A stretch of DNA of 31,633 nt from a virus: the IMG/VR virus record IMGVR_UViG_3300027833_000153, positions 1-31,633 of that record; one strand, written 5' to 3'. Positions within the stretch are counted from its first letter, which is position 1; every line of letters begins with the position of its first letter. Under the pieces are notes generated by a model. That model searched no databases and was not told the DNA's origin. It saw nothing but the letters and a program-made list of their open reading frames with translations. Shown here piece after piece: positions 2,556 to 31,302 of this stretch. The translations under genes and the position numbers were made by a program.

Positions 2556-2988
2556 AAAGATAAAAGACACCGCTCTTGGGGCGTGGCTAAGTAGCAAGGC
2601 CCCTTCGTTAGCATCAAAGGTTGGGGATCTCCTGCCTGACAGGGGGGTGCTAGGCATTGTAAAGAACCTAGTGGGTGGGGAGCCCAACATTTCCCCTGAA
2701 GATATGCTTGAGTTCGAGCAGTTGAAGATGCAGCAAGAGATCTCGGCTCAAGAGCAAGTCACACGCAGGTGGGAGGCGGACTCCAAAGGGGATGTACAGC
2801 TGTCTAAGTACATCAGGCCAGCGAGCTTGATTGCTTTGACCTCGTTCTATATGATCGTAACAGTTTGGGATGGGCTCGATGATGACTTCACTCCCCCTCA
2901 GATTTACATCCGACTGCTTGAGCTGCTTATGCTTACCGTATTCGGGGCATACTTCGCAGGTAGAACGATTGAAAAGGTAAAGAGATGA
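2542..2988 (+). CDS. Holin, GTA/3TM-type
   Basis: 148 residues. Residues 60-148 carry the pattern of the 'Holin of 3TMs, for gene-transfer release' family: an amphipathic helix with TRRWEAD, then LSKYIRPASLIALTSFYMI as a membrane segment, a polar loop, and a final hydrophobic helix ending in FGAYFAGRTIEKVKR. The family is thought to make membrane lesions that let the endolysin reach the cell wall. The first 50 residues are soluble and contain GDLLPD and KNLVGGEP, also usual in this family. The ATG lies within the end of the upstream gene and the stop overlaps the next start (ATGA), so translation is probably coupled. It sits among virion genes rather than next to an obvious endolysin. Confidence 0.8.
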   Translation: MPENKKIKDTALGAWLSSKAPSLASKVGDLLPDRGVLGIVKNLVGGEPNISPEDMLEFEQLKMQQEISAQEQVTRRWEADSKGDVQLSKYIRPASLIALTSFYMIVTVWDGLDDDFTPPQIYIRLLELLMLTVFGAYFAGRTIEKVKR

Positions 2989-4394
2989 GATTGAGAAAGA
3001 AGTACCAGAACGGAGGGGGAGTTCCTGGAGGGGATCCAAAGCGCGAAGCAGAGCAGCTTGCCTTTGCTCAACTCTTAAAAGACGAGGCTTTTAAGAAGAA
3101 GCTGGAAGAGAAGATGCGCTTGCGTGATGAGTACGGGGTCTACGCTGACGACGCTGCTGGTCTCCCATCTATCGATCCATTCCTGGCTTTGACTGCAGCG
3201 GGGGATGCAGAAGCCATCGGTTCTGGACTTTCAGAAATGGCTGGTGGAGACCTACTTACTGGAGCAGGAAACGTTATGCTCGGTGCCGCCAGCCTCGCAA
3301 TCCCTGGTACCCTCCCGAAGATTAAGAACGTAAGGGGACTGGATGTAACATTGAGAGACGTTAACATGCCTGCGCATAGAGGCAATGTCGCTGACATAAC
3401 TGTAGGGGACATAGAGCTGGCCAGTATGTCAAGGAATGAAGACGTACTCGTCCAGGGAAGACCGATGTATGAGCCAGACATTAATGCTGGTGCGTCCAAA
3501 CTAGCGGAAAGTAAGGACAGGTTAGCCTATCTAAAAAAGAACGACCCAACATCAAGTGAGATACCAACGCTTGAGAAGAGTCTCATCAATCGACTAGGCA
3601 AGTACCCCGAGGAAGTTGCGGACATGTCGGCGGGGTCTATTAGAAGGGCTATGGCCGATGCGACAAAAGAAATGCTGGATCATGTTCCTATTGGAGCAAA
3701 GACTGGAGCCACGTCATACTCTACAGACTCTTACCCTATTGTATTGCAGCGATGGGCTAAGGGTCAGCTGTCCGCAAACCGATTTGATGACGTCAGCCGA
3801 TTTGAGGGTGACCTATTGAACCAATCTGGAAAGAAATATAAAAACTCTCCTGAGGTAGAGCAGTGGCACAAAAGATACGAGGGCAATGAAGAGGTGGTAG
3901 GGTATTATAACGACGATTTTTTCGACAACACTTTTTCGCCACGCAATCAAATGGATTTCGATCAGTTTACTCGTATCGATCCTGCTGCCAAAGCTGCTGT
4001 AGATGGGAACAATTTAAACAGAGCGGAAGACTTATACGATAAGTACCGTGCTCAAGCAGACAATCCGTTTGGCGTTAGCTCATTCGGTACGTCTGGGTCT
4101 GAGGCCATCTTAGATTTTGATGAGGCTCAAGAACTGGCAGATATATTCAACAAAAGAATTCGTGCCGCTGCTGACAGGAGACCGTCAAAGCAGGCCAATA
4201 TGTTGAAGAGGGGGGACAATAAGGCTAAAGCGCAGATAGGAAAAGACGAAGGTATCCCACTCGCTAAAGTCGTAGACAGAGGGGAGGGGTTCACCATTGT
4301 CTACCCCCAGATTCCGTTCCACAGAAACTTTGAGGAAGGGGGTAAGTTCAAGATCAAAAGGCAGCGCCCGACAGGGATGCAAGTAAAGAGATGA
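2985..4394 (+). CDS. Tagged virion-associated protein of unknown function
   Basis: 469 residues. The N-terminus MRLRKKYQNGG belongs to the tag shared with the late genes at 19879, 20712, 21338, 23296, 24455 and 24901. The C-terminus has EEGGKFKIKRQRP, a basic GG tail like those ending the genes at 19879 and 21338. After the tag comes a charged helix (to about residue 45) and then an Ala/Gly-rich hydrophobic stretch around residues 60-105 which could interact with membrane. The rest is soluble without a recognised catalytic motif. The start is fixed by an ATGA overlap with the holin. The tag suggests it is packaged in or ejected from the particle; that is inference. It is the last gene of the left plus-strand block and is followed by hairpins. 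Confidence 0.75.
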   Translation: MRLRKKYQNGGGVPGGDPKREAEQLAFAQLLKDEAFKKKLEEKMRLRDEYGVYADDAAGLPSIDPFLALTAAGDAEAIGSGLSEMAGGDLLTGAGNVMLGAASLAIPGTLPKIKNVRGLDVTLRDVNMPAHRGNVADITVGDIELASMSRNEDVLVQGRPMYEPDINAGASKLAESKDRLAYLKKNDPTSSEIPTLEKSLINRLGKYPEEVADMSAGSIRRAMADATKEMLDHVPIGAKTGATSYSTDSYPIVLQRWAKGQLSANRFDDVSRFEGDLLNQSGKKYKNSPEVEQWHKRYEGNEEVVGYYNDDFFDNTFSPRNQMDFDQFTRIDPAAKAAVDGNNLNRAEDLYDKYRAQADNPFGVSSFGTSGSEAILDFDEAQELADIFNKRIRAAADRRPSKQANMLKRGDNKAKAQIGKDEGIPLAKVVDRGEGFTIVYPQIPFHRNFEEGGKFKIKRQRPTGMQVKR

Positions 4395-5328: not shown

Positions 5329-5764
5329 GCTGCAGTTGTTTTATGTCTTCAATCACACGGTCAATTTGCTGCTTATTCTTCGCTATATATACAGCGCAGT
5401 CCTTGTTGTTATCAACGAGGTGACGTAGAAAAAGTTTCCAGCGCATGCTGAAATCATGATGAGAGTGCAGGTACCCCTTGGTTTCGATGACCCAGCTCTC
5501 GTCCGTGGCCACGAAGTCTGGCGTATACCTGATAGGCAACTGAATACTGTTGCTCCGATCGCTCAGGTCTTTTCTCTTGGCGGTCATCTTCAAGTACCTG
5601 TTGGGATACCTGAACTTATCCATCAACAGATACTCCTTCTCTTCGTACTTAAAGTCTAGCCCCGCTGCCCTAAGCTGGTCGTTGCAGTACTTCTCGATAC
5701 CGCTCTTGAATTTACCCAGGTTCTTCTTGCGACTAGGTCTAGTCGCTGACTTCCTCTTCTTCAT
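5318..5764 (-). CDS. Endonuclease with PD-(D/E)XK motif (T7 endonuclease I-like or resolvase)
   Basis: 148 residues from the ATG at 5764; an in-frame start at 5845 exists but would run far into the helicase gene and adds an unrelated hydrophobic peptide, so 5764 is preferred (26-base overlap with the helicase, ACAGGG just upstream). The N-terminus MKKRKSATRPSRKK is strongly basic. Residues about 75-105 read RYTPDFV...WVIETKGYLH followed by D..MRWKLF, which is the P-D-x(n)-E-x-K catalytic pattern of phage endonucleases that resolve branched DNA or degrade host DNA. Position directly after the primase-helicase fits a role in processing replication intermediates. Exact subfamily not determined. 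Confidence 0.7.
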   Translation of the reverse strand: MKKRKSATRPSRKKNLGKFKSGIEKYCNDQLRAAGLDFKYEEKEYLLMDKFRYPNRYLKMTAKRKDLSDRSNSIQLPIRYTPDFVATDESWVIETKGYLHSHHDFSMRWKLFLRHLVDNNKDCAVYIAKNKQQIDRVIEDIKQLQHGG

Positions 5765-7607
5765 CGCCCTGTAATATACCACCAAAGGATGTATTAGGGG
5801 CAATAGTATACCTGATTTTATCAATAGGAATCTCTTTCTGAACACCTCCAGTAAAAGACAACGGGCTAATGATTGGCTTTTGTTTGCCCCACTCCACGAA
5901 ACCCGTGTGAGAATTATTCATAATCATCTTAAAGGGTTCGTCAAGAGATGAGGGCTGACCTCCAGTCTCTGTCTCCCTTACCTTCCTGATATGAACCTCT
6001 GTCATGCTACGAGTATGCGGGTCAGGGGCCTGCACCTTTCGGTGTATAGTGAGGAAGCAGTCCGCTCTGTTCACAAACTTACCGCCCCCCTCTGTGTCTT
6101 CTGCATAGGGTGCGCTCGGTAATCCATCCGCCCCCTTCCTTCTCTGTGCCTCAGTGACAGCGTGCATGTTCAACCATACAGCGACATCGTTATTCTTACT
6201 GAATGTAAGGAAAGATGTAGCAGCCTCGTAGTGGTAGTCGTGAGTGTTCTGCATCTCAGACTTCCGAAGGTCTAGCCGCAAGCTATTGTATGGGTCTACA
6301 AACACCGCGTCGATGCCGTGATAGAACTGTGTCTTCTCCATGAAGGTGATCATGTCCATGTATGTGTAAACATGGGTCGTGGTCACGATATAGAAGTGGT
6401 CGTTCACGAACTCGTATGAAGCCTTGCGCTCCTGGTAGGTCATGTTGGCTACCTTCTTGTCGCAGACCATTTGCATCAGTGACATCTTGATGCTGCTTGT
6501 TCTATTCTCCGCACTGTAGATCATCCACTTCCAACCATGGCGAATTGTGGAGTTAGCGATTAGGTACAGAGCACTGGTGGTTTTACCCACGTTACTGTGT
6601 CCGTTCATGATAACGAACTCTTTCTTGTACCGAAAGTATTTATCTAGCTCCTCACTACCAGTGTCTAATCCCTGCTCAATACGCCCTTGACTAAAGTCCT
6701 CGATCCATTGGAAGTCATCATCCGCGTCTACCAAGAAGCTTAAGTCCCCATCCTCGATGCGCATTTGTCTTTGCGCTTCCTCCTCTTGCTGTACGATGTC
6801 GCGTATAGGACGCGTCTTACCATGCTCAATGCCTTCTCGGATTGCATCCAAGGCAGATTGCATACTGTCTATATCTCTTTTAGATATCTCCCTAGAGAGG
6901 ACGCGGATAACCTCCTCCTCTTCCATCTTACCAGCAGCGATGTATCCACCGCAGAGCGTGGCTGCTTTGATTAGCACATTGTGCTTCTCTCCATGCGATG
7001 CATTGCGCACCATACGGGCAGCGATATTGAGTTTGTCATAGTCAGTGTGTTGAGGTGTCGGCTCTAAGGCTGGCTCCTCAAACTTCTCTTCACTAACAAA
7101 CTTCCCGAACTTCTGGCTGACAGTCTTAATGACTATCTCAGGGTCATAGCTCTCAAAACACGCACGGCTTTCATTGATGCCGCTCTCGTCTAGGTCAAGG
7201 CCATACCTCCCGTCGAAGTATCGGACAAGGGCTCTGAAGTGATCCCTGTGTCGCTCTGGATTGCTTACTCTTACTAGCGCCTTTACGCCAGTACCTGATG
7301 GGGATTCCCAACAGCTGTAGATGTACTCGTCTGTAGCAAGTACCTTCTTAGTAGATTCAACTTCAACGTGATCAAAGTCAAGAACTATGTAACTACTGTG
7401 TTCGTTGATGTCATTATCGGAACGAGACGAGAACTCCCCACTGAACAATACAGCGGGGAGTTGCATCTTCTTCTCTTTGTTTCCCGATCTTACACTTTCA
7501 ACTACTGTACGTGACCTCCCGTCCCGAATGCGATGCAGTGCTTGAACTACTGTCAACGGGTGCGGACTGGCCTTGTCGTATATGCTTCTGAAGATCGTTA
7601 TGTTCAT
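5739..7607 (-). CDS. Primase-helicase fusion (BT4734/VirE-N-type PrimPol plus RecA-fold helicase)
   Basis: 622 residues. The N-terminal third matches BT4734-like primase domains of Bacteroidetes elements: YIVLDFDH (residues 73-80, the two-Asp metal motif of archaeo-eukaryotic-type primases) and SPSGTGVKAL (102-111). A linker follows, then a RecA/DnaB-like motor with Walker A GHSNVGKTT (336-344), Walker B AVFVDPYN (434-441) and later motifs ending in IRKVRETETGG. It should open the fork and make primers or prime-polymerise; it is the only replicative helicase in the window. The start at 7607 is chosen because the PrimPol domain begins immediately; this gives a 110-base overlap with the upstream gene. 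No DNA polymerase is visible here. Confidence 0.85.
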   Translation of the reverse strand: MNITIFRSIYDKASPHPLTVVQALHRIRDGRSRTVVESVRSGNKEKKMQLPAVLFSGEFSSRSDNDINEHSSYIVLDFDHVEVESTKKVLATDEYIYSCWESPSGTGVKALVRVSNPERHRDHFRALVRYFDGRYGLDLDESGINESRACFESYDPEIVIKTVSQKFGKFVSEEKFEEPALEPTPQHTDYDKLNIAARMVRNASHGEKHNVLIKAATLCGGYIAAGKMEEEEVIRVLSREISKRDIDSMQSALDAIREGIEHGKTRPIRDIVQQEEEAQRQMRIEDGDLSFLVDADDDFQWIEDFSQGRIEQGLDTGSEELDKYFRYKKEFVIMNGHSNVGKTTSALYLIANSTIRHGWKWMIYSAENRTSSIKMSLMQMVCDKKVANMTYQERKASYEFVNDHFYIVTTTHVYTYMDMITFMEKTQFYHGIDAVFVDPYNSLRLDLRKSEMQNTHDYHYEAATSFLTFSKNNDVAVWLNMHAVTEAQRRKGADGLPSAPYAEDTEGGGKFVNRADCFLTIHRKVQAPDPHTRSMTEVHIRKVRETETGGQPSSLDEPFKMIMNNSHTGFVEWGKQKPIISPLSFTGGVQKEIPIDKIRYTIAPNTSFGGILQGDEEEEVSD

Positions 7608-19878: not shown

Positions 19879-20715
19879 ATGAGACTGAAGTATCAGAATG
19901 GTGGGCGTACAGGGGATCCACCTAAGTCAAACCGTGACGCCATCCCTCAGTACTCGTCTATGGAGGAGATGATGGCCATGTCACCCTATGATCGTGGAGG
20001 CAGCGGCTCTGTCCAGAACGTATTCGGTCCAGCAGATTACACACTGGGGGCATTCCCACTCATGCGTGCCTTGTCCCCAGCGGCAAAATCCGTAGGTAAG
20101 TACCTAGGGTTGGGTAGAAAGGCTTCCTCTAAGATTCCTTATAAGCCCATAGACATTACAGACGCCAAAAACATCAGTGATTTCCCGACAGACATCCCTG
20201 GTAAGGAACTTGGTAGCGAGTATGAGTTCTTGATCAACGAGATTATGGACGACTACAATTGGGACAATCTCTTCCATATGAAGGAGTTGTTCAACAAAAG
20301 CTCAAAAGATTTGGCAGCAGATAAAAAAATATACAGTGCCGTAATGAAGAGAGTCGAGGACTTCTACACTCCAAACAAGGGTGGTCAGGATGTGGTATCG
20401 GCGCTTCTCAACGTAAAAAACTCGGGGCAAACGTTATCAAAGATCAACAAAATCCGCACTGAAGCTATTGAGGAGGTCGCTGATGAGTTTCGTAAAGATC
20501 CTTTAAGTTTTGGAGGGAGTGAAATCGACTTCGATCGTTTCATACAACAATCCGCCAACAGGGTTCACAACAAAGTGAAAGACTACGCAGCCTCTCAAAT
20601 AAAAAATTCAGCATCAGAAACCGCTGAAATAGAAGTGGCCCGTAGGATGAATGAAGCAGTGAACCCATTCTACAGCAATGCCATCGGAGGCAGGATTAAA
20701 GTTCTAAAAAAATGA
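19879..20715 (+). CDS. Tagged virion-associated protein
   Basis: 278 residues. N-terminal tag MRLKYQNGGRTGDPPKS and C-terminal AIGGRIKVLKK, both shared with other late genes. Between them an acidic, helical protein with no recognised catalytic motif (for example YFLGLGRKASSK and NKGGQDVVSALLNV). First gene of the rightward block, ATGA overlap with the next. Confidence 0.72.
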   Translation: MRLKYQNGGRTGDPPKSNRDAIPQYSSMEEMMAMSPYDRGGSGSVQNVFGPADYTLGAFPLMRALSPAAKSVGKYLGLGRKASSKIPYKPIDITDAKNISDFPTDIPGKELGSEYEFLINEIMDDYNWDNLFHMKELFNKSSKDLAADKKIYSAVMKRVEDFYTPNKGGQDVVSALLNVKNSGQTLSKINKIRTEAIEEVADEFRKDPLSFGGSEIDFDRFIQQSANRVHNKVKDYAASQIKNSASETAEIEVARRMNEAVNPFYSNAIGGRIKVLKK

Positions 20716-21335
20716 GACTAAAGTATCAGAACGGTGGACGTCCAGGGGATCCAAAGAAAAAGAAGATGCCCGATTGGTACCCCGCTTTCCTACACGCCCT
20801 ATCTGGGGTGGAATCTTCGTATGGTAAGAACATGATGAACCCTACGACTACAGCAACGGGGCTGTATCAGCAGATGTTCAAGGAGATCAAGGACATGCCA
20901 GAGATGAAGGGTGTTTCTAGAGCTCAGTTCGCGAAAGACCTCAAGCTGCAGGGCAAGATTCAAGACATGCGTATGCGTGGAGAGATACCTGAAGTGCCAG
21001 GATTGCTTCGCAACGTAAGAGATATAAAGTCTAAGAACCTCACCCCAGACGAAGTTGCGGCTATGAGCCACTTCATAGGTAGGGATGGGCTTATGCAGCA
21101 GCTCAAGAGCGGGTACGATATCCCAGGGAAGAACGCTTCTTTCGACGAATACCTCTCTCGGTACCGAAAAGCGCGAGCTACATACAAACCCCCAGAGGAA
21201 AAGATGCAACCGCTCGAGGTTTCTCCCCCGCAGCAGGTAGAGCCAGCTCTGCAAAACGCATTCAAGATATTAAGGGAAGCACCTAAGGTTTCCCCAGACT
21301 TACAAAACGCAATCGATATATTACGTAGAGGTTGA
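20712..21335 (+). CDS. Tagged lytic transglycosylase (SLT/lysozyme-like)
   Basis: 207 residues. Tag MRLKYQNGGRPGDPKKKK, then ALSGVESSYGKN (catalytic Glu34) and TATGLYQQMF (50-53 GLYQ), the ES-x-x-G / GLYQ pattern of soluble lytic transglycosylases that cut the glycan strands of peptidoglycan. No signal peptide; with the tag it is best seen as a virion protein that opens the wall at entry. The C-terminal third is Pro/Gln-rich. ATGA overlaps on both sides in frame-shifted spacing. Confidence 0.78.
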   Translation: MRLKYQNGGRPGDPKKKKMPDWYPAFLHALSGVESSYGKNMMNPTTTATGLYQQMFKEIKDMPEMKGVSRAQFAKDLKLQGKIQDMRMRGEIPEVPGLLRNVRDIKSKNLTPDEVAAMSHFIGRDGLMQQLKSGYDIPGKNASFDEYLSRYRKARATYKPPEEKMQPLEVSPPQQVEPALQNAFKILREAPKVSPDLQNAIDILRRG

Positions 21336-21337
21336 AT

Positions 21338-23146
21338 ATGAGACTCAAAAAAAGATATCAGAACGGTGGTGGTTTCGGGGATCCCCCACAGGGTACCATC
21401 ACCCCGAAAGAGGCTTTGATGCGGGCACTGCAACCTCAGAACCAGTTCAGGTTGACTGGTGGGGACGCTCCGTTCCGCACTATCAGAAATGAGAAAGATC
21501 GTATGGCGGCAGAGACTGTCGATGACAGCATGTTTGAGATGGCTAGGTTCCTCCCAGTAATCGGTGAGGGTATCGACGCTGCCGAGCTGGCTAAAGTAGC
21601 CGCTACAGGTAAGGACTTCTACGGGGAGAAGCAAGACCCAGGGCTGTTCACTGCGCTCACCGCCGCAGGGTACTTGATCCCAAATGCTCTCGAGAAACCC
21701 ATGAAGGCGGCATGGCGAGCAGTGAAGAATTTCCCTGCGAAGATACCAAAGCGAGAGTTCCGTGAACTCCCTAGCGAGCAGAGAGAGGCTGTACTGCAAA
21801 ACCTAACTCAAGCTCACAATGAGGTGTACGATATGTCGAGCGACGCAAGTAACTTGGACCGAATGGTTCTTTACCCAGCGGGCGTTTCTCATAACATCCG
21901 CCAGCTTTCTTCGCTGATGTCAGGGAGTAAGCTCGAGAACGCCGTTGGAAAGGACGGGTTGATCCAAGTTAGTCAAATCGAGAACTTAATCAACAGTAAA
22001 GACCTGTCTGCCGTAGAGCGAGAGGCACTGCAAGAGGTGATGGAAACTGAGGCCTTCCAAGCCCTGCGTGAGATGGGGGGTGGGAGTAAAGTGGACTACA
22101 ACAAGTTCAGGAACCTCACTTCTAATCAAACATCCGTACATAACAACATGTATGTGGAGGATAGTGACGATCTTGCAGACTACGGGTTGGGGAGGTTGGG
22201 TTATCAGGATTTGGATCGTTACACGGGGTCCGACTTAGAAGCCATGAGAGCGGGCGCTCGGGTCAATGCCATCAAGCACAATAGGACTGACTTGATGAGC
22301 AAAGAGAGAGGTCACTACGGACGGGACGTTATCGGGCACTACCGCACCTTCGAGCGCCCAGACGAGAAAGGGGTGCTGTACATCTCTGAGCTGCAGGCCG
22401 ACCCACTGCAAGCGCGTGGATCTGCAGGGCAGAAACGTATTGGGTTGAACATTGGGGAGGGAGGACCTACTACTAAGCAAGCTAACCTCATCAAGAACCA
22501 AGACCAGTTCCTTATCTCTCACATCCTAGAGCAAGAAGCGAAGGGGGTAGACAAGCTCCGCTTCCCGACGGGGGAGACGACAAGCAAGATTCAGGGGTAC
22601 GGGGATCAGAGCCGTAGAATTAGCAGGGCCGAGTCAGACGTTAGTCTGTACGAGAACATCTCTAAGGAGGCTAGGGAGAACGAGCTCGTAGACAAGACCT
22701 TCAAAGAACACCCGATGTTCAAGGGGAAGAGTGAGGATGAAATCATGTATATGCTAGAGGGAATTACAACAACAAGGCGAAACCTACCTTCTTCTTCAGA
22801 TAGCCGAATAATGGGTGAGTACGAGAAGGGGTTCAGGGAGCTCGGCGGAAATGAAAACACTACCCGAAAAGCTATCTTCGATTGGTACGACGCAACCAAG
22901 AAGAAGCGCTCTTCGCGTGAGCACCTATCTCGCATCAACGCTAGTGAGCAAGCCACTCAAGGAATTATGAAAGGTTACGACCGCCTCCCGAAAGCTTTGA
23001 AGAAGCACGGGTTGGATGCGACAAATTTCACTGACGATGTAGGCAACACTTGGTGGGAGGTAGATATCCCCGCTCGCATCGGAGAGGGTGTAGGGGAAAT
23101 CCGTGCCTATAAGAAAGGCGGTAAGTTTAGAATATTAAAGAAATAA
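21338..23146 (+). CDS. Tagged polyvalent-protein relative
   Basis: 602 residues from the ATG at 21338 (the frame can begin at a TTG at 21332, but the tag MRLKKRYQNGG begins exactly at the ATG). Residues about 340-365 (LYISELQADPLQARG) resemble the E-x-Q-S-D-x-x-Q element of domains in phage polyvalent proteins, followed by a stretch with KLRFPTGE and, near the C-terminus, WWEVDIPARIGEGVG and the tail KKGGKFRILKK. It is likely packaged in the particle. Enzymatic role not determined. Confidence 0.72.
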   Translation: MRLKKRYQNGGGFGDPPQGTITPKEALMRALQPQNQFRLTGGDAPFRTIRNEKDRMAAETVDDSMFEMARFLPVIGEGIDAAELAKVAATGKDFYGEKQDPGLFTALTAAGYLIPNALEKPMKAAWRAVKNFPAKIPKREFRELPSEQREAVLQNLTQAHNEVYDMSSDASNLDRMVLYPAGVSHNIRQLSSLMSGSKLENAVGKDGLIQVSQIENLINSKDLSAVEREALQEVMETEAFQALREMGGGSKVDYNKFRNLTSNQTSVHNNMYVEDSDDLADYGLGRLGYQDLDRYTGSDLEAMRAGARVNAIKHNRTDLMSKERGHYGRDVIGHYRTFERPDEKGVLYISELQADPLQARGSAGQKRIGLNIGEGGPTTKQANLIKNQDQFLISHILEQEAKGVDKLRFPTGETTSKIQGYGDQSRRISRAESDVSLYENISKEARENELVDKTFKEHPMFKGKSEDEIMYMLEGITTTRRNLPSSSDSRIMGEYEKGFRELGGNENTTRKAIFDWYDATKKKRSSREHLSRINASEQATQGIMKGYDRLPKALKKHGLDATNFTDDVGNTWWEVDIPARIGEGVGEIRAYKKGGKFRILKK

Positions 23147-23147
23147 C

Positions 23148-23276
23148 ATGAAAGAAGAAGACGACATCAGCTTCCTCAACCCAGATCGGGTGAAGAAGAC
23201 AGAAGAGAAACTGGAGAGTGGGGAGATCACCTGCAACATCGACTCCCCCGAGGACTGCGAATCTTGCAGCGGGTAA
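23148..23276 (+). CDS. 42-residue acidic protein with C-terminal Cys cluster
   Basis: ATG at 23148, one base after the previous stop codon; TAA at 23274-23276. Very acidic N-terminus and CNIDSPEDCESCSG at the end (four cysteines). Fits the gap before the promoter at 23283. Not recognised. Confidence 0.5.
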   Translation: MKEEDDISFLNPDRVKKTEEKLESGEITCNIDSPEDCESCSG

Positions 23277-23282
23277 TCTATT

Positions 23283-23290
23283 TATATTTG
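23283..23290 (+). promoter_or_regulatory. TATATTTG -7 element, leaderless-type start
   Basis: TATATTTG ends six bases before the ATG at 23296. In Bacteroidetes the transcript would start at or next to the ATG, so the mRNA may be leaderless. No clear -33 element is seen. Confidence 0.5.
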
Positions 23291-23295
23291 TAGTA

Positions 23296-23955
23296 ATGAA
23301 GACGTTACGTAGATATCAAGACGGAGGTAAGCCACCGCAGGGTATCCCAAGCAAAGAGAGAATTCAACAGCTCGAATCCCTTAATCGACCCATGACGGAG
23401 GCCGAGCGCAGGGAGTACGTGTCTTATTCTTTCAATCCAGCAGCTGGTCCGAATGCACTATTCAGCATGTTGGCAGGGTTCAGTCCTGCAGCAGAGTCTA
23501 TTGATGTACTTGGCAAGGGACTTACCTACGGTGCGGGTTACTTGTCTAAACTCAGCCCTGCTGCCAAGCGTGTCATGATGGCGTTGGGTGTCGGCAAAAA
23601 GGCAGATCGCATGGATGATGCGTACTATGATAGTATGTACTACGATTCAAGCGACGGAGTATTGACCGCAGAGGGTATTCCTGATTACCTAAGCACCCCC
23701 CCAAGTAAAAAGACTCCATTTGGTCGGGGCGGCGACGCCGCTTCTGATATGTTAAAAAGAAGAGCGGACACTCAGATGCGAATACAGCGATATGACGAAA
23801 GAATGGCTCTGCTAAGGGATGTTTACGGTGACAAAATACCTAAAGATATTTCTTCGTTGGCTCGAGCGCGTAGAGCAAACGATGTGGAAACAATCAAGAT
23901 GCTTGAGAGTCGCGTAAAAGAATCAGCGGACAGGGCAATGCGTAATCTTCAGTGA
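23296..23955 (+). CDS. Tagged virion-associated protein
   Basis: 219 residues from the ATG at 23296; the frame is open further upstream but the tag (MKTLRRYQDGGKPPQG) and promoter fix the start. Contains a hydrophobic Ala/Gly-rich stretch at about 55-95 and a charged C-terminal helix. No recognised catalytic motif. Confidence 0.68.
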   Translation: MKTLRRYQDGGKPPQGIPSKERIQQLESLNRPMTEAERREYVSYSFNPAAGPNALFSMLAGFSPAAESIDVLGKGLTYGAGYLSKLSPAAKRVMMALGVGKKADRMDDAYYDSMYYDSSDGVLTAEGIPDYLSTPPSKKTPFGRGGDAASDMLKRRADTQMRIQRYDERMALLRDVYGDKIPKDISSLARARRANDVETIKMLESRVKESADRAMRNLQ

Positions 23956-23984: not shown

Positions 23985-24455
23985 ATGGCAACACTAACAG
24001 TAACGCTCAAAGAAGAGCTCGAGCTGAATGGCAAGGATCGAGGTAGTGAGCTGACGCTCAGTGTCGGTAGCGTTACGCAAGCGTACCATAGGATCGTAAC
24101 CTGCCCAGCAAACAACGATACTACTATTGCTACGTTCCAGACAGCAGTGCATACTGCAGACAACGCCATCGATCTTGAGGACGCAAAGTATATCCGAGTA
24201 ACCAACCTCGATACCAGCAATGAAGTAGTGCTTTCACTACAGATTTCCAACAGTGAGAACGGTACCGCCGACGGCAGCGCCAGTATTCTTTTGGCTGCAG
24301 GCAGAAGCTACATCATGGGGATCCCTCACGAGGGTATCGCATGTGACGATGACTCCGCAGCCATCATAACCGACACGGCACTCCACGACCTGGAATCGCT
24401 TGTCGTAGACCCAAAGGCCAATTCCGTAAGCGTAGAAGTATTCATAGCAAGCTAA
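23985..24455 (+). CDS. Putative virion structural protein (beta-rich)
   Basis: 156 residues, almost all beta strands and rich in Thr, Ser and Asp (begins MATLTVTLKEELELNGKD; contains YIRVTNLDTSNEVVLSLQI). Small proteins of this type are frequent beside capsid/tail genes of marine phages; a decoration or tail-fibre-associated role is likely but not shown. Untagged, unlike its neighbours. Confidence 0.6.
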   Translation: MATLTVTLKEELELNGKDRGSELTLSVGSVTQAYHRIVTCPANNDTTIATFQTAVHTADNAIDLEDAKYIRVTNLDTSNEVVLSLQISNSENGTADGSASILLAAGRSYIMGIPHEGIACDDDSAAIITDTALHDLESLVVDPKANSVSVEVFIAS

Positions 24456-24901
24456 TGAGATTAAAGTATAAAGAAGGGGGGAACTACCAGAATGGTGGAA
24501 CTTACGACCCCTATTCCCCTATGACAAAAGAAGAGCGTCAGTTCCAGAGAGGAATGGAACGCTATGACGAAGGGGTGAAGGGCATGCTCAAGAAGGAGAT
24601 GAGGCAGAGGGACCGAGAAGCGTTCCGCACAGCACGAAGAGACCCCGATGGGTACTACCCCGCCTTGGATTCTGAAACCAGTATTTTACTTGAAATGCTG
24701 GAGAGCGGTCAACTAAATAAAGAAGATGCCATGAGAATTGGTAAGAGGCGCAGGCTGGGTAAGCAGGTCGGACCCTTTGCCGCTGAAGCGGCCCTCGGTC
24801 TATTAGCGTCTGGTAAAGTGGCTCAGAGTAAAGCCGAGCGCCAGGGACTAGGTCGCCCTAAGTTTGGGCGGGCCCTACTTTCAGCTTTAGGGTTGATCTG
24901 A
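24455..24901 (+). CDS. Tagged virion-associated protein, doubled tag
   Basis: 148 residues. The N-terminus MRLKYKEGGNYQNGGTYDP contains two GG tag-like elements. Charged helix in the middle and an Ala/Gly-rich hydrophobic C-terminus (PFAAEAALGLLASG). Stop and start of neighbours overlap by single bases. Confidence 0.68.
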   Translation: MRLKYKEGGNYQNGGTYDPYSPMTKEERQFQRGMERYDEGVKGMLKKEMRQRDREAFRTARRDPDGYYPALDSETSILLEMLESGQLNKEDAMRIGKRRRLGKQVGPFAAEAALGLLASGKVAQSKAERQGLGRPKFGRALLSALGLI

Positions 24902-25167
24902 TGAAGTGCAAGAAGAAGTATAACGACGGGGGTATCTTTGGGAAACCGAGTAAAAAGAAGCAGCGTAAGAACGTAGCGCCTCAAAACCCCAGGTTTCTTC
25001 CTTCTGCTCAGATGGAAGGAGAGGGATCTCTAGAGAAAAAGGAAAAGAAAGAGAAGAAGAGGAAGCTTAAGCTGGTGAAGAGAAAGGGGAGGGTGTGTAT
25101 GACTACAGGTGGCGGCAGAAAACTAGGTAGGTCTGTGGACGCTTCTTGCAAGAAACCTGGATCCTAA
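24901..25167 (+). CDS. Tagged, strongly basic small protein
   Basis: 88 residues. MKCKKKYNDGGIFGKPSKKK is a tag variant; two Lys runs follow, and the end CMTTGGGRKLGRSVDASCKK has paired cysteines. Possibly a DNA-packaging or condensing virion protein; unrecognised. Confidence 0.62.
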   Translation: MKCKKKYNDGGIFGKPSKKKQRKNVAPQNPRFLPSAQMEGEGSLEKKEKKEKKRKLKLVKRKGRVCMTTGGGRKLGRSVDASCKKPGS

Positions 25168-27253: not shown

Positions 27254-27533
27254 GAAGTTCACTGCGCTGGATGCAGCGAAGCGGTTGATGGGGAGCATGG
27301 AAGTCGCCATCAATAATATGATCGAGGAGATTAAGAAGCCTGTAGACGCTGAGATAAACGGAAGCGCTCGCAAGGCGGAGCTTCAGTCCATCAAACAAAC
27401 GGCCATCGACTGTAAAGAATTACTTGTGGAAAGGCAAAGGTTGGAACAGATGATGAGAGACCTTACATTGGGCGACGGAGTTTCACCAGATAAAGACTAC
27501 ACGGGTGGCTTCGCAGAAAAATATTCAAAATGA
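27243..27533 (+). CDS. Possible small terminase subunit
   Basis: 96 residues, helical with a coiled-coil-like segment (ELQSIKQTAIDCKELLVERQ...LEQMMRDL), upstream of the large terminase. The resemblance to small terminase subunits is of pattern and position only. Overlaps both neighbours. Confidence 0.4.
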   Translation: MSSKKFTALDAAKRLMGSMEVAINNMIEEIKKPVDAEINGSARKAELQSIKQTAIDCKELLVERQRLEQMMRDLTLGDGVSPDKDYTGGFAEKYSK

Positions 27534-27847
27534 CTTGGCAGAAAGAAGGTTGGGATCGTCTCATGATGTTGTTGGAGGATAATGAATGCCTCTTGGCCGA
27601 TGGATTTAATCAGTCTCTTGTGGGTATTACTCAAGGTGTGAACCCTGTAGCGATCTACGATATAAATCTTATGGTGAATCATCTAGTCGATCAACATGAG
27701 ATGACGCCCGACGATGCTATTGAACACTTAGAGTTCAATGTTGTTGGTGCTTACGTCGGAGAGAAGACGCCAATGTATGTAGCCCTAGACTTTGAAAGAC
27801 TGCAAGATCATGTTAAAGATTATAGCGCTCATAGCTCAGACGGTTAG
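27530..27847 (+). CDS. Small phage protein whose 3' end lies in the tRNA
   Basis: 105 residues. The core (MTWQKEGWDRLMMLLEDNE, VNHLVDQHEMTPDDAIEHLE) is helical and acidic. The last codons (from 27825) and the TAG stop (27845-27847) are inside the tRNA-Met gene, so the C-terminus is tRNA sequence read as protein. Confidence 0.58.
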   Translation: MTWQKEGWDRLMMLLEDNECLLADGFNQSLVGITQGVNPVAIYDINLMVNHLVDQHEMTPDDAIEHLEFNVVGAYVGEKTPMYVALDFERLQDHVKDYSAHSSDG

Positions 27848-29177
27848 AGCATCCGACTCATACTCGGCGGGTCGTGGGTTCAAGTCCTACTGGGCGCACT
27901 TACTTCTAATCTATTTTCCTCTAGCTTCATACGCTCAGTGTGACGTAGATATAATTGATGTCAACCTAAATACCTATGAGGTCACCCTAGAGGTGGTCAA
28001 TAGTGAGGGCTGCGGTATGCAGGGGTATCAGGCGACTCCAGGTGCGATAAACATGCTTATGATTGGGATGCATGTCCCAGGAGTTGATGAACCGTGGGAC
28101 CCAGACGGGCCGTGTGACATGTCCCCTAACTCGAATCACTTAGGTTGGACTTACGGGACTAGTTTAAGTTCAACACCAAACAACTGGGCTAACGACTTCG
28201 ACATAGACATGCCTCTATATAGTGGGGACACGGTTGTGATGCAGTTAGACAATCCATACGGGACAGACTGTGTAAACGACCCTTTCTTGACAGGGGGTAT
28301 AAGCTGCTGTGCTCCTCAGTACATAGACTATTGGATAGGTCTGGGTGAGTGTATCGAGATCGTTATTTGGCAAATCAACTACAGTAACACTTGGTATGCC
28401 GCAGACGGCGGATGGGCTACAACAGGGCCTAATGGGGATGGAACTGATTGGGGTTCTACAGGAACTTACCCTGACCAAGAGATTGAAAACTGGTGGGTGT
28501 CCTGCGAGCAGGCAGGTCCGATATATATAATCGATACGGTTTATGTGGAGGTCCCAGCGGACACAGTCATTCAATCGGATACGATATACATAGACATCTG
28601 GTATTACACTACGGACACTATAGAGGTGTATCTTACTGACACAACCTATCTTGTTGACTATGTGTACGATACAACCTACGTGTATCAGTTGGACACTGTG
28701 CTTGTACCCGATCCAGTGTATGATACAACCTACGTATATAGCGTGGATACAACCTACGTATATAGCGTGGATACAACCTACGTGTATGATCTAGATACGA
28801 TATATGAGTATGTAGTACAAGAAATATGGTTGGATTGTGAAACAGGTATTCCTTGTGACGATCAGCCAGGAATGGGTGAATGTGACGAGGTTAGTGTTTT
28901 TGTCCCAAATGTATTCACTCCAAACAACGATGGTGTTAATGACTCTTTCAATGCTGTCCAGTCAGATCCTTCTTGCTGGTCGGAATGGACGTTAGTCATA
29001 TACAATAGGTGGGGTGCAGTAGTCTTTGATACCAACAACCCTAATGAGCCGTGGGACGGCAGTAATAACGGAGGCGTGAGTTTTGTTCCAGACGGTGTTT
29101 ATGTCTGGGTTATTCAGGGGTCTTCTGTTGTTGGTGGTTCAGTAAATCTTACGGGTACCATACAGATTTTACGATGA
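27810..29177 (+). CDS. T9SS-type-B (CHU/gliding CTD) exported repeat protein
   Basis: 455 residues from the ATG at 27810 (an ATG at 27792 is also open). Only after the tRNA region does a clear secretion signal appear (LLLIYFPLASYAQ, then CDVD). A Cys-containing beta-rich body follows, then TTYVY/DTTYVYSVD repeats (about 280-340) and the C-terminal CHU_C domain (FVPNVFTPNNDGVNDSF, then VIYNRWG and W-D-G...GVYVW). That domain directs proteins to the type IX secretion system and cell surface of Bacteroidetes. Its place next to the terminase makes it either a particle component or a surface protein expressed during infection. ATGA overlap with the terminase gene. Confidence 0.7.
   Translation: MLKIIALIAQTVRASDSYSAGRGFKSYWAHLLLIYFPLASYAQCDVDIIDVNLNTYEVTLEVVNSEGCGMQGYQATPGAINMLMIGMHVPGVDEPWDPDGPCDMSPNSNHLGWTYGTSLSSTPNNWANDFDIDMPLYSGDTVVMQLDNPYGTDCVNDPFLTGGISCCAPQYIDYWIGLGECIEIVIWQINYSNTWYAADGGWATTGPNGDGTDWGSTGTYPDQEIENWWVSCEQAGPIYIIDTVYVEVPADTVIQSDTIYIDIWYYTTDTIEVYLTDTTYLVDYVYDTTYVYQLDTVLVPDPVYDTTYVYSVDTTYVYSVDTTYVYDLDTIYEYVVQEIWLDCETGIPCDDQPGMGECDEVSVFVPNVFTPNNDGVNDSFNAVQSDPSCWSEWTLVIYNRWGAVVFDTNNPNEPWDGSNNGGVSFVPDGVYVWVIQGSSVVGGSVNLTGTIQILR
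27825..27898 (+). tRNA. tRNA-Met(CAT) (elongator or Ile2)
   Basis: 74-nt cloverleaf: acceptor GCGCTCA/TGGGCGC, D-stem GCTC/GAGC, anticodon arm TCCGA-CTCATAC-TCGGC (anticodon CAT; outermost pair mismatched), T-arm GTGGG-TTCAAGT-CCTAC, discriminator A. G1-C72 excludes an initiator. CAT could also be a lysidine-type Ile tRNA. Overlaps two ORFs. Confidence 0.9.
28722..28793 (+). repeat. 24-bp tandem repeat coding DTTYVYSV
   Basis: Unit starts at 28722, 28746 and 28770 (two nearly identical, the third diverging at its end). A looser copy lies at 28668. Encodes the Asp-Thr-Thr-Tyr-Val-Tyr stalk of the exported protein. Confidence 0.75.
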
Positions 29178-31297
29178 ACGCTCTTGTAGATTTAGATGAG
29201 TATGAAGACAAGGCTATTTCGATATGCCCCAGTGGGACGCATGGCGACCACATTGAAGTCGGTGGGCTTCTCATTATCCTTCCCAAGACCCCTAAGGTCA
29301 AGGAGATCTTGTACTACGATTTACCCCCTAAAGATCAATACTGGAGGAGAGCTGATCTTCCCAAGGAGATCTCGCGTATTCGTTCTATGGATGAGTGGGC
29401 GGAAATGCCAAGGGAATTCAGAGAAAAGTTTCGTCCATATATCGAGGAAGAGTTTCGGCGTAGGCGTGAGGGCGTTTGGTTTTATAACCGAGGTGACGCT
29501 ACATACATCACTGGACGTCACTACATGATGCTTCAGTGGTCGGTGCTTGATATTGGAGCACCGTACTACTTAAACTTCCAGAGAGATATCTTTCTTCATT
29601 TGGCAGCATGTGAGGCAGATCCTCGCTGTATAGGACAGCTTTACACCAAGTGTCGTAGATCTGGATACACCAATATATGCTCGTCTGTTATAGTAGACGA
29701 AGCCACTCAGGTAAAGGATAAGCTCCTGGGTATACAGAGTAAAACTGGTAAGGACGCTCAGGAAAACATCTTCATGAAGAAGGTGGTGAATATGTTCCGT
29801 AAGTACCCATTCTTTTTTAAGCCTATTCAAGACGGTACAACAAACCCTAGGATGGAGCTTGCATTTCGAGAGCCATCAAAGAAAATCACAAAAAACAATA
29901 AAACAGCTCAGGTGGGTGACGCATTGAATACTGTCATCAATTGGAAGAACACAACCAATAATGCGTATGACGGGGAGAAGCTACACTTGATGTACTTAGA
30001 CGAGGCAGGTAAGTGGGAGAAGCCTACCGACATAAGGGAGGCATGGAGGATTCAGAGGACCTGCCTAATCGTAGGCAGGAAGATCGTGGGGAAAGCTATG
30101 GTGGGGAGTACGGTAAACCCCATGGGTAAAGGAGGAAGTGAGTACAAAGACCTATGGGAGGACTCGGACCCAGCGGATAGAAATAAGAACGGTAGGACCA
30201 GGAGTGGATTGTATAGGCTATTCATACCTGCGTACGAATCAATGGAGGGGTTCTTTGATTTGTACGGAGGGGCAATCATAGAAGACCCTGAAGAAAACGT
30301 TGAGGGCATCGACGGGGAGTACGTTCATATGGGGGCGAAGACGTTCTTAAAGAACGAGAGGGATAGTCTTAAGCATGACGCATCAGAGTTGAATGAGGTC
30401 ATAAGGCAGTTCCCCTTCACTACGGATGAAGCGTTTAGGGATAGCATAGAGGGCAGCTTATTTAACATAGGTAAGATATATGAGCAGGTTGAGCACAACG
30501 ACTCTCTATACCCAAACCCAGTTGTACAAGGGCAGTTCTCTTGGAAAGGAGGGGTTGAAGACACCGAGGTGGTTTTTACTCCTGACGCTAATGGTAGGTT
30601 CAGAGTGGCGTGGATGCCACCCCCCGAGCTAAGGAATATTAAGGCAAACGACAGGAGTAAAAAGATAGCCCCACACCCACACTTAGGATGCGGAGGTGTA
30701 GATAGCTATGACTTGGACGCTACTGTTGACGGTAGGGGATCTAAGGGGGCTCTACATATGTACAACAAGTTCAACATGCAGGTTCCTGCAAATATGTTTG
30801 TTGTAGAGTATGCGTCCAGACCTCCATTGGCGAGCATCTTCTATGAGGACGTTTTAATGGCGGCTGTTTTTTACGGGTACCCAATCTTAATTGAGAACAA
30901 CAAGTATGGTATAGCTCGTTATTTCGAGTCAAGAGGATACGATGGGTATCTAATGGATCGCCCCTCTCACCTATTGAGTACTAGTTCTAAGGTCAACGTA
31001 AAGACAAAAGGAATACCATCAAACTCCATTGATGTGATTCAGTCTCATGCTCAAGCTATCGAAGCTTATATCCACGATTACGTAGGGGTGAACAGGGATA
31101 CTGGAGAGGTAGGGAACATGTACTTCAATAGAACCCTAGAGGACTGGATCGGATACGACATAAACAATAGAACCAAGTTTGACCTTACGATTAGTTCTGG
31201 CCTGGCTCTTTTAGCCGCTCAAAAAGTGAAGCCTAAAAAGGAGGCTACGTCTTTTGATGAGAAGCGATTCTTTAGACGATATAAGGTGAGGGGTTGA
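29174..31297 (+). CDS. terL: Terminase large subunit (crAss-like)
   Basis: 707 residues. ATPase part: Walker A variant KCRRSGYTN (159-167) that lacks the usual GK[ST], comparable to the KSARVGYS of lambda gpA; Walker B HLMYLDE (271-277); a following motif near W-x-I-Q-R-T. Nuclease part: GVDSYDLD (508-515) with a further acidic residue at E545 (VVEYASRPP). Length and C-terminal NKYGIARYFESRGYDGY agree with crAss-like phages. It packages DNA into the procapsid. Confidence 0.85.
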   Translation: MNALVDLDEYEDKAISICPSGTHGDHIEVGGLLIILPKTPKVKEILYYDLPPKDQYWRRADLPKEISRIRSMDEWAEMPREFREKFRPYIEEEFRRRREGVWFYNRGDATYITGRHYMMLQWSVLDIGAPYYLNFQRDIFLHLAACEADPRCIGQLYTKCRRSGYTNICSSVIVDEATQVKDKLLGIQSKTGKDAQENIFMKKVVNMFRKYPFFFKPIQDGTTNPRMELAFREPSKKITKNNKTAQVGDALNTVINWKNTTNNAYDGEKLHLMYLDEAGKWEKPTDIREAWRIQRTCLIVGRKIVGKAMVGSTVNPMGKGGSEYKDLWEDSDPADRNKNGRTRSGLYRLFIPAYESMEGFFDLYGGAIIEDPEENVEGIDGEYVHMGAKTFLKNERDSLKHDASELNEVIRQFPFTTDEAFRDSIEGSLFNIGKIYEQVEHNDSLYPNPVVQGQFSWKGGVEDTEVVFTPDANGRFRVAWMPPPELRNIKANDRSKKIAPHPHLGCGGVDSYDLDATVDGRGSKGALHMYNKFNMQVPANMFVVEYASRPPLASIFYEDVLMAAVFYGYPILIENNKYGIARYFESRGYDGYLMDRPSHLLSTSSKVNVKTKGIPSNSIDVIQSHAQAIEAYIHDYVGVNRDTGEVGNMYFNRTLEDWIGYDINNRTKFDLTISSGLALLAAQKVKPKKEATSFDEKRFFRRYKVRG

Positions 31298-31302
31298 TTT
31301 AT

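Follow-up and report, generated by a model that had tools for sequence, protein, structure and literature searches.

The window comprises 31,633 bases and is a virus record from IMG/VR to which no host genome is attached. On its plus strand, at 27810..29177, lies a gene for a putative type B cargo of the type IX secretion system (T9SS). The most likely start is the ATG at 27810, which gives a protein of 455 amino acids, including the codons of a nested tRNA gene (27825..27899) that would have to be read through. Downstream of the tRNA, the gene encodes the hydrophobic core of a signal peptide, LLLIYFPLASYA (27900..27935), with predicted cleavage before a Gln codon (27936); a head domain (mature residues 1-199, 27936..28532), which is predicted to be a beta-sandwich; a stalk of Asp-Thr-Tyr-Val repeats (28533..28835); and a type B T9SS C-terminal sorting domain (CTD), which was placed at 28899..29174 by matches to the CHU_C and TIGR04131 profiles. 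Upstream, also on the plus strand, a small gene of unknown function (phrog_13182, 27530..27847) has its last codons and its stop inside the tRNA. Downstream, the gene for the large subunit of the terminase (29174..31297, plus strand; phrog_6681, E = 9e-204) shares 4 nt with the end of the cargo gene.

Most of what an earlier note had read from these letters holds up. It had described a signal peptide, and the core is indeed followed by Gln and Cys, which are invariant in all 15 of the relatives that we aligned over their N-termini. It had also described Thr/Tyr/Asp repeats: these three amino acids make up more than half of a stretch of 101 residues (Thr 19%, Tyr 19%, and Asp 16%, with 11 occurrences of “DT”), and within this stretch the DNA itself contains a 24-bp tandem repeat (2.8 copies, 28722-28787). 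The CHU_C-type C-terminal domain is matched by PF13585 (E = 1.5e-17, 63.9 bits), and the gene does abut the terminase. The start was misplaced, as there is no start codon at 27899, which is the last base of the tRNA gene. We also note that the mature protein is strongly acidic, with 62 Asp or Glu residues and 2 Lys or Arg.

The earlier note had proposed that the protein is T9SS cargo and that a model of the gliding-type CTD could be used to check this. The curated cut-offs are 27 bits for CHU_C (PF13585) and 35 bits for TIGR04131, the NCBIfam model of the type B sorting domain, and the window's C-terminus exceeds both (it scores 42 bits against TIGR04131). CHU_C is the only Pfam match of the protein at E <= 0.01; the same search found no Por_Secre_tail (PF18962), which is the type A C-terminal domain. 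The earlier note had also held that the loss of residues that the T9SS needs would count against export. On this point our evidence is at the level of the whole domain, which both models recognize; one study reports that motifs A-E, within the last 100 residues, are each required for the SprB CTD to be secreted (PMC12618676). At the other end of the protein, essentially all complete relatives have signal-peptide-like N-termini that end in [A/S/G]QC, which is as expected from the Q-rule for signal peptidase I of Bacteroidetes (PMC5837995). Given the two profile matches, the Q-rule signal peptide, and conservation across the family, the claim that this is T9SS cargo is well supported by sequence.

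The protein belongs to a large family of phage proteins. A protein scan gave 8 close relatives, and an alignment scan found at least 214 viral contigs that encode relatives, of which we retained the best 80. All 42 of the phage relatives that we aligned match both PF13585 and TIGR04131, and none of these 42 members has a match in PHROG. Isolates of related phages infect Flavobacterium, Cellulophaga, Tenacibaculum, or Maribacter. We considered whether the gene was captured from a host and rejected this: the cellular matches that we fetched share the sorting domain alone or, at most, also part of the repeats that precede it, and among about 790 Bacteroidota genomes, a profile of the head matched just 2: one weakly, and one strongly but with a truncated head that is joined to hydrolase-like sequence near a contig end. 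Judging from these searches, the head is essentially phage-specific. A Flavobacteriales genome contig (L251:1441-2883) carries a head that breaks off near residue 134, where it is fused to hydrolase-like sequence at the end of the contig, which could be capture, decay, or misassembly. As for the sorting domain, in a tree built on 94 columns, in which many forks are weak, just two changes are needed to separate 28 phage rows from 80 cellular rows, with one cellular row (L237) inside. Of these 80 nearest cellular CTDs, nearly all fall outside the phage clades, and the CTDs of the phages look like lineages that have long been in phages, not like recent copies from hosts.

The head does not resemble any protein that would suggest a function. 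The AlphaFold 2 model of the head (pLDDT 80, pTM 0.81) looks like a generic beta-sandwich only, with no informative match in the PDB (best VIA-align Z of 5.9; Foldseek E above 0.05), and sequence searches of the head and the CTD against solved structures gave nothing. In the full-length model, the CTD has high confidence and weak Ig-like matches that include PorU, and the stalk has low confidence. Among viral predicted structures (BFVD), Foldseek found only two that match the head well, A0A516LPX6 (TM 0.78) and A0A7S9STS8 (TM 0.54; Virus NIOZ-UU157). These share the head fold, so members of the family are already in the databases, one of them as a “Gliding motility-associated C-terminal domain-containing protein,” a name that reflects the domain only. 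We did not find any paper that discusses the function of these two proteins.

The head is a constrained, working domain that is exchanged between phages. From 27933 to 28564, the window is 85.6% identical in DNA to the phage L002, while their terminases are 69% identical in DNA; at the protein level, the head is 94% identical to that of L090 and L002 and the terminase is 72% identical. The comparison with L010 and L102 is the reverse: the terminase is 90% identical, the CTD 68%, and the head 40% (all as protein), and positions 28770-31300 are colinear with L010 at 76% DNA identity. Because the head matches L002 while the stretch with the CTD and the terminase follows L010, these identities indicate that the head has a different history from the sorting domain and the terminase and that the window's gene is a mosaic. 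One joint of the exchange coincides with the beginning of the mature protein and the other with the beginning of the stalk. More broadly, across 31 phages, the identity of the terminase is correlated with that of the CTD (rho = 0.39, with 0 of 500 permutations as high) and barely with that of the head (rho = 0.10, with 26 of 500 permutations as high). CTDs are sometimes replaced too, as phages with about 90% identical terminases are found in both CTD clades. Finally, between the window and L002, the head has a dN/dS of about 0.03, so it is under strong purifying selection.

How would the protein reach the surface? Type B CTDs require a shuttle related to PorP or SprF, which is usually encoded directly downstream, and three orphan type B cargos of F. 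johnsoniae use one common shuttle (PMC12618676). Directly downstream of the window's cargo gene is the terminase instead. Also, PorP/SprF (PF11751) was found in 0 of 20 related phage records, as compared to 5-16 copies in each of five host-type genomes that served as controls. For the cellular CTD genes that are nearest, just 2 of the 28 downstream ORFs that we scanned are PorP/SprF, so these signals, too, mostly lack linkage to a shuttle gene. Since we found no phage shuttle, the phage cargo would borrow one from the host. The cargo would reach the periplasm by way of Sec and signal peptidase I, the host's SprA translocon and a PorP/SprF-type shuttle from the host would recognize the type B domain, and the cargo would be held on the surface of the infected cell, with its head on the repeat stalk. 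Surface display would follow from what is established about type B CTDs: the characterized proteins end up on the cell surface (PMC12618676, PMC9143113), apparently anchored by PorP-like proteins (PMC9143113). We infer the export, the anchoring, and the timing, and on the whole we think it likely that the phage makes a cargo that the host's T9SS exports and that is displayed on the infected cell.

We are much less sure of the purpose. Our best guess, with low confidence, is that the cargo alters the surface of the infected cell, by superinfection exclusion, masking, or adhesion, and we rank these above the decoy and virion roles that are discussed below. A literature search did not turn up a clear paper on phage resistance that depends on the T9SS or on gliding. 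If the protein were specifically an adhesin, then infected cells would stick to one another, to particles, or to new hosts, which would aid transmission. A head on a repeat stalk with a type B CTD does resemble known type B adhesins (PMC12618676), and by eye, two relatives (L117 and L167) have CARDB-like and GCTD...DDGSC modules, but the structure searches gave no known adhesin fold for the head, and we view this as rather unlikely.

Another reading is that the cargo is a decoy for the shuttles. Overproduced fusions to a type B CTD are secreted only when the shuttle is produced along with them, as shuttles are scarce (PMC12618676). An excess of orphan cargo late in infection could fill the PorP/SprF shuttles and SprA and so deprive the cell of its own type B adhesins, as well as of receptors that rely on these, and the lack of a shuttle in the 20 phage records would fit with this. 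But such a decoy would need just the CTD, which does not account for the strong purifying selection on the head or for its exchange as a unit, so we consider a decoy to be improbable.

Another concern about surface display is whether this particular gene is expressed. The nested tRNA is a tRNA-Met/Ile2 (CAT) of 75 nt, or 25 codons; it was found by ARAGORN, which called the anticodon, and by Rfam (RF00005, 63 bits). The cargo ORF, with its stop at 29177, is in the same frame as 27792, and there is no ATG, GTG, or TTG between the tRNA and the hydrophobic core. Because the nearest in-frame starts (the ATG at 27810 and the TTG at 27792) precede the tRNA, the tRNA gene is embedded in the ORF's 5' end: its codons keep the frame, contain no stop, and lie between MLKII (from the ATG at 27810) and the core of the signal peptide. 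If the codons of the tRNA are left out, then the N-terminus reads MLKIILLLIYFPLASYA/QC, which is a textbook signal peptide; we mean this as a description and not as a claim about the ancestral DNA. As the signal peptide could be obtained only by translation through the tRNA gene, expression of the window's cargo is uncertain. Indeed, the tRNA might have disabled the gene by taking its start region, as no start codon follows the tRNA and its maturation would cut the message. Against this, the tRNA amounts to exactly 25 codons that preserve the frame and include no stop, an ATG lies upstream, and two contigs from two metagenomes have a tRNA-Ile(TAT) of exactly 75 nt at the same spot and in the same frame, with open frames (L014:2601-2675 and L140:2926-3000). 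A disabled gene therefore seems doubtful to us, about on a par with the decoy. In the window and in both of these contigs, the stop codon of the upstream gene is also inside the tRNA. Several relatives also have starts that overlap the end of the upstream gene, by 20-40 nt. Pattern scans for other junctions of a tRNA and a signal peptide returned only L014, the contig of L140, and L254, and we discarded L254, as the 260 bases around its match, examined by eye, do not have this arrangement. The scans did not find a second copy of the window's own junction, although near copies may not appear in such scans, so an assembly error in the window retains some small probability.

The cargo lies in a variable slot between the terminase and a conserved block of small genes (a GroES-like gene and two others). 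In relatives, the slot contains this cargo, a 245-aa ORF, GroEL-like, HNH-like, or lipoprotein-like ORFs, or tRNAs, several of which were named by eye. CHU_C is present in 15 of 47 records that were selected by terminase or by cargo. In L002-L008, L108, L111, L114, L120, and L169, a tRNA-Arg(TCT) lies some 5-10 nt beyond the stop of the cargo, so the two kinds of gene seem to travel together. Promoter and terminator scans gave no more matches than expected by chance. Ig-like domains are common in virions, the cargo gene is beside the terminase on the same strand, and there is no terminator-like site between them, but it is very improbable that the protein is a virion component with a C-terminal domain that is no more than an Ig-like structural module, given that a Sec signal that follows the Q-rule is conserved in essentially all relatives, that none of the 42 members matches a PHROG, and that the cargo's presence varies among phages with near-identical terminases.

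Returning to display on the infected cell, a broader proposal is plausible, if somewhat more doubtful than display itself. Bacteroidota phages may own a modular display platform, in which head cassettes are swapped at the junctions between signal peptide and head and between head and stalk, while the sorting domain, which is fitted to the host's shuttle, tends to stay. Infected cells would then carry interchangeable recognition domains. In some members, an in-frame tRNA gene would supply the n-region of the signal peptide, so that tRNA and cargo from one transcript would be mutually exclusive.

T9SS cargo in phages is already known, and the type B variant is new. In 2020, Cryophage was reported to have genes with type A CTDs on an endoglucanase, a GH39 protein, and a PA14 protein (Bellas et al. 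2020, PMC7468147). Those are also genes of Bacteroidetes phages with a T9SS sorting domain, they are also highly variable between variants, and superinfection exclusion was proposed there too. In contrast, the window's cargo is type B, has another head, sits in a slot next to the terminase, and shows exchange of the head within the gene. In a study of gut phages (de Jonge et al. 2019, PMC6949934), sorting domains of the T9SS were noted in phage genes close to the head module, as here, and close to BACON ORFs; the window's cargo does not have a BACON domain. The type B cargos of F. johnsoniae have the same ends (a signal peptide and a TIGR04131 domain), and the three orphans also lack a neighboring shuttle gene, but those proteins are cellular and have other bodies. 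If our interpretation is correct, then remodeling of the host surface via the T9SS would be a widespread trait of phages, beyond the one reported case, and the type B signal, being an orphan, would allow a prediction of the host shuttle. With the head cassette, there would be a direct way to probe what phages gain from decorating infected Bacteroidota cells. Also, it is unusual for a tRNA to be nested in the coding region of a signal peptide.

Type A cargos are found in phages of this terminase clade as well. Of eight long records that were picked by terminase alone (L018, L020, L021, L030, L044, L053, L069, and L075), six encode type A cargo; L053 has type B too, and L069 has a partial match that is below the curated cut-off. 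Four records encode a secreted protein of 738-829 amino acids with GCTDP..NYD...DDGSC repeats, downstream of a portal-like gene (L075:15815-18028, L020:13169-15655, L021:13176-15605, and L030:13220-15445), and Pfam confirms a type A sorting domain in L020 and L075. After the type A cargo, L020 (15831-16901) and L030 (15618-16685) have an ORF of 356-357 amino acids with a signal peptide and a C-terminus like that of an outer-membrane beta-barrel. It does not match a Pfam family or, convincingly, a solved structure; from its sequence, it could be a phage shuttle or a porin. L028, L030, and L031 have a 515-aa GroEL-like chaperonin (identified by eye) in the slot, about 1.5 kb upstream of the terminase and near the GroES-like gene. 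In L032, a small secreted ORF (5761-6120) with a dockerin-like ending, PGDLDNNGTVDVEDLLLFLSNYG, is directly upstream of the type B cargo. Finally, seven otherwise different proteins of the window share an N-terminal tag similar to MRLKKxYQNGG (2985-4394, 19879-20715, 20712-21335, 21332-23146, 23218-23955, 24455-24901, and 24901-25167), and two of them also end in GG[KR]xxxLKK; perhaps the tag is a shared signal for the targeting or processing of packaged proteins.
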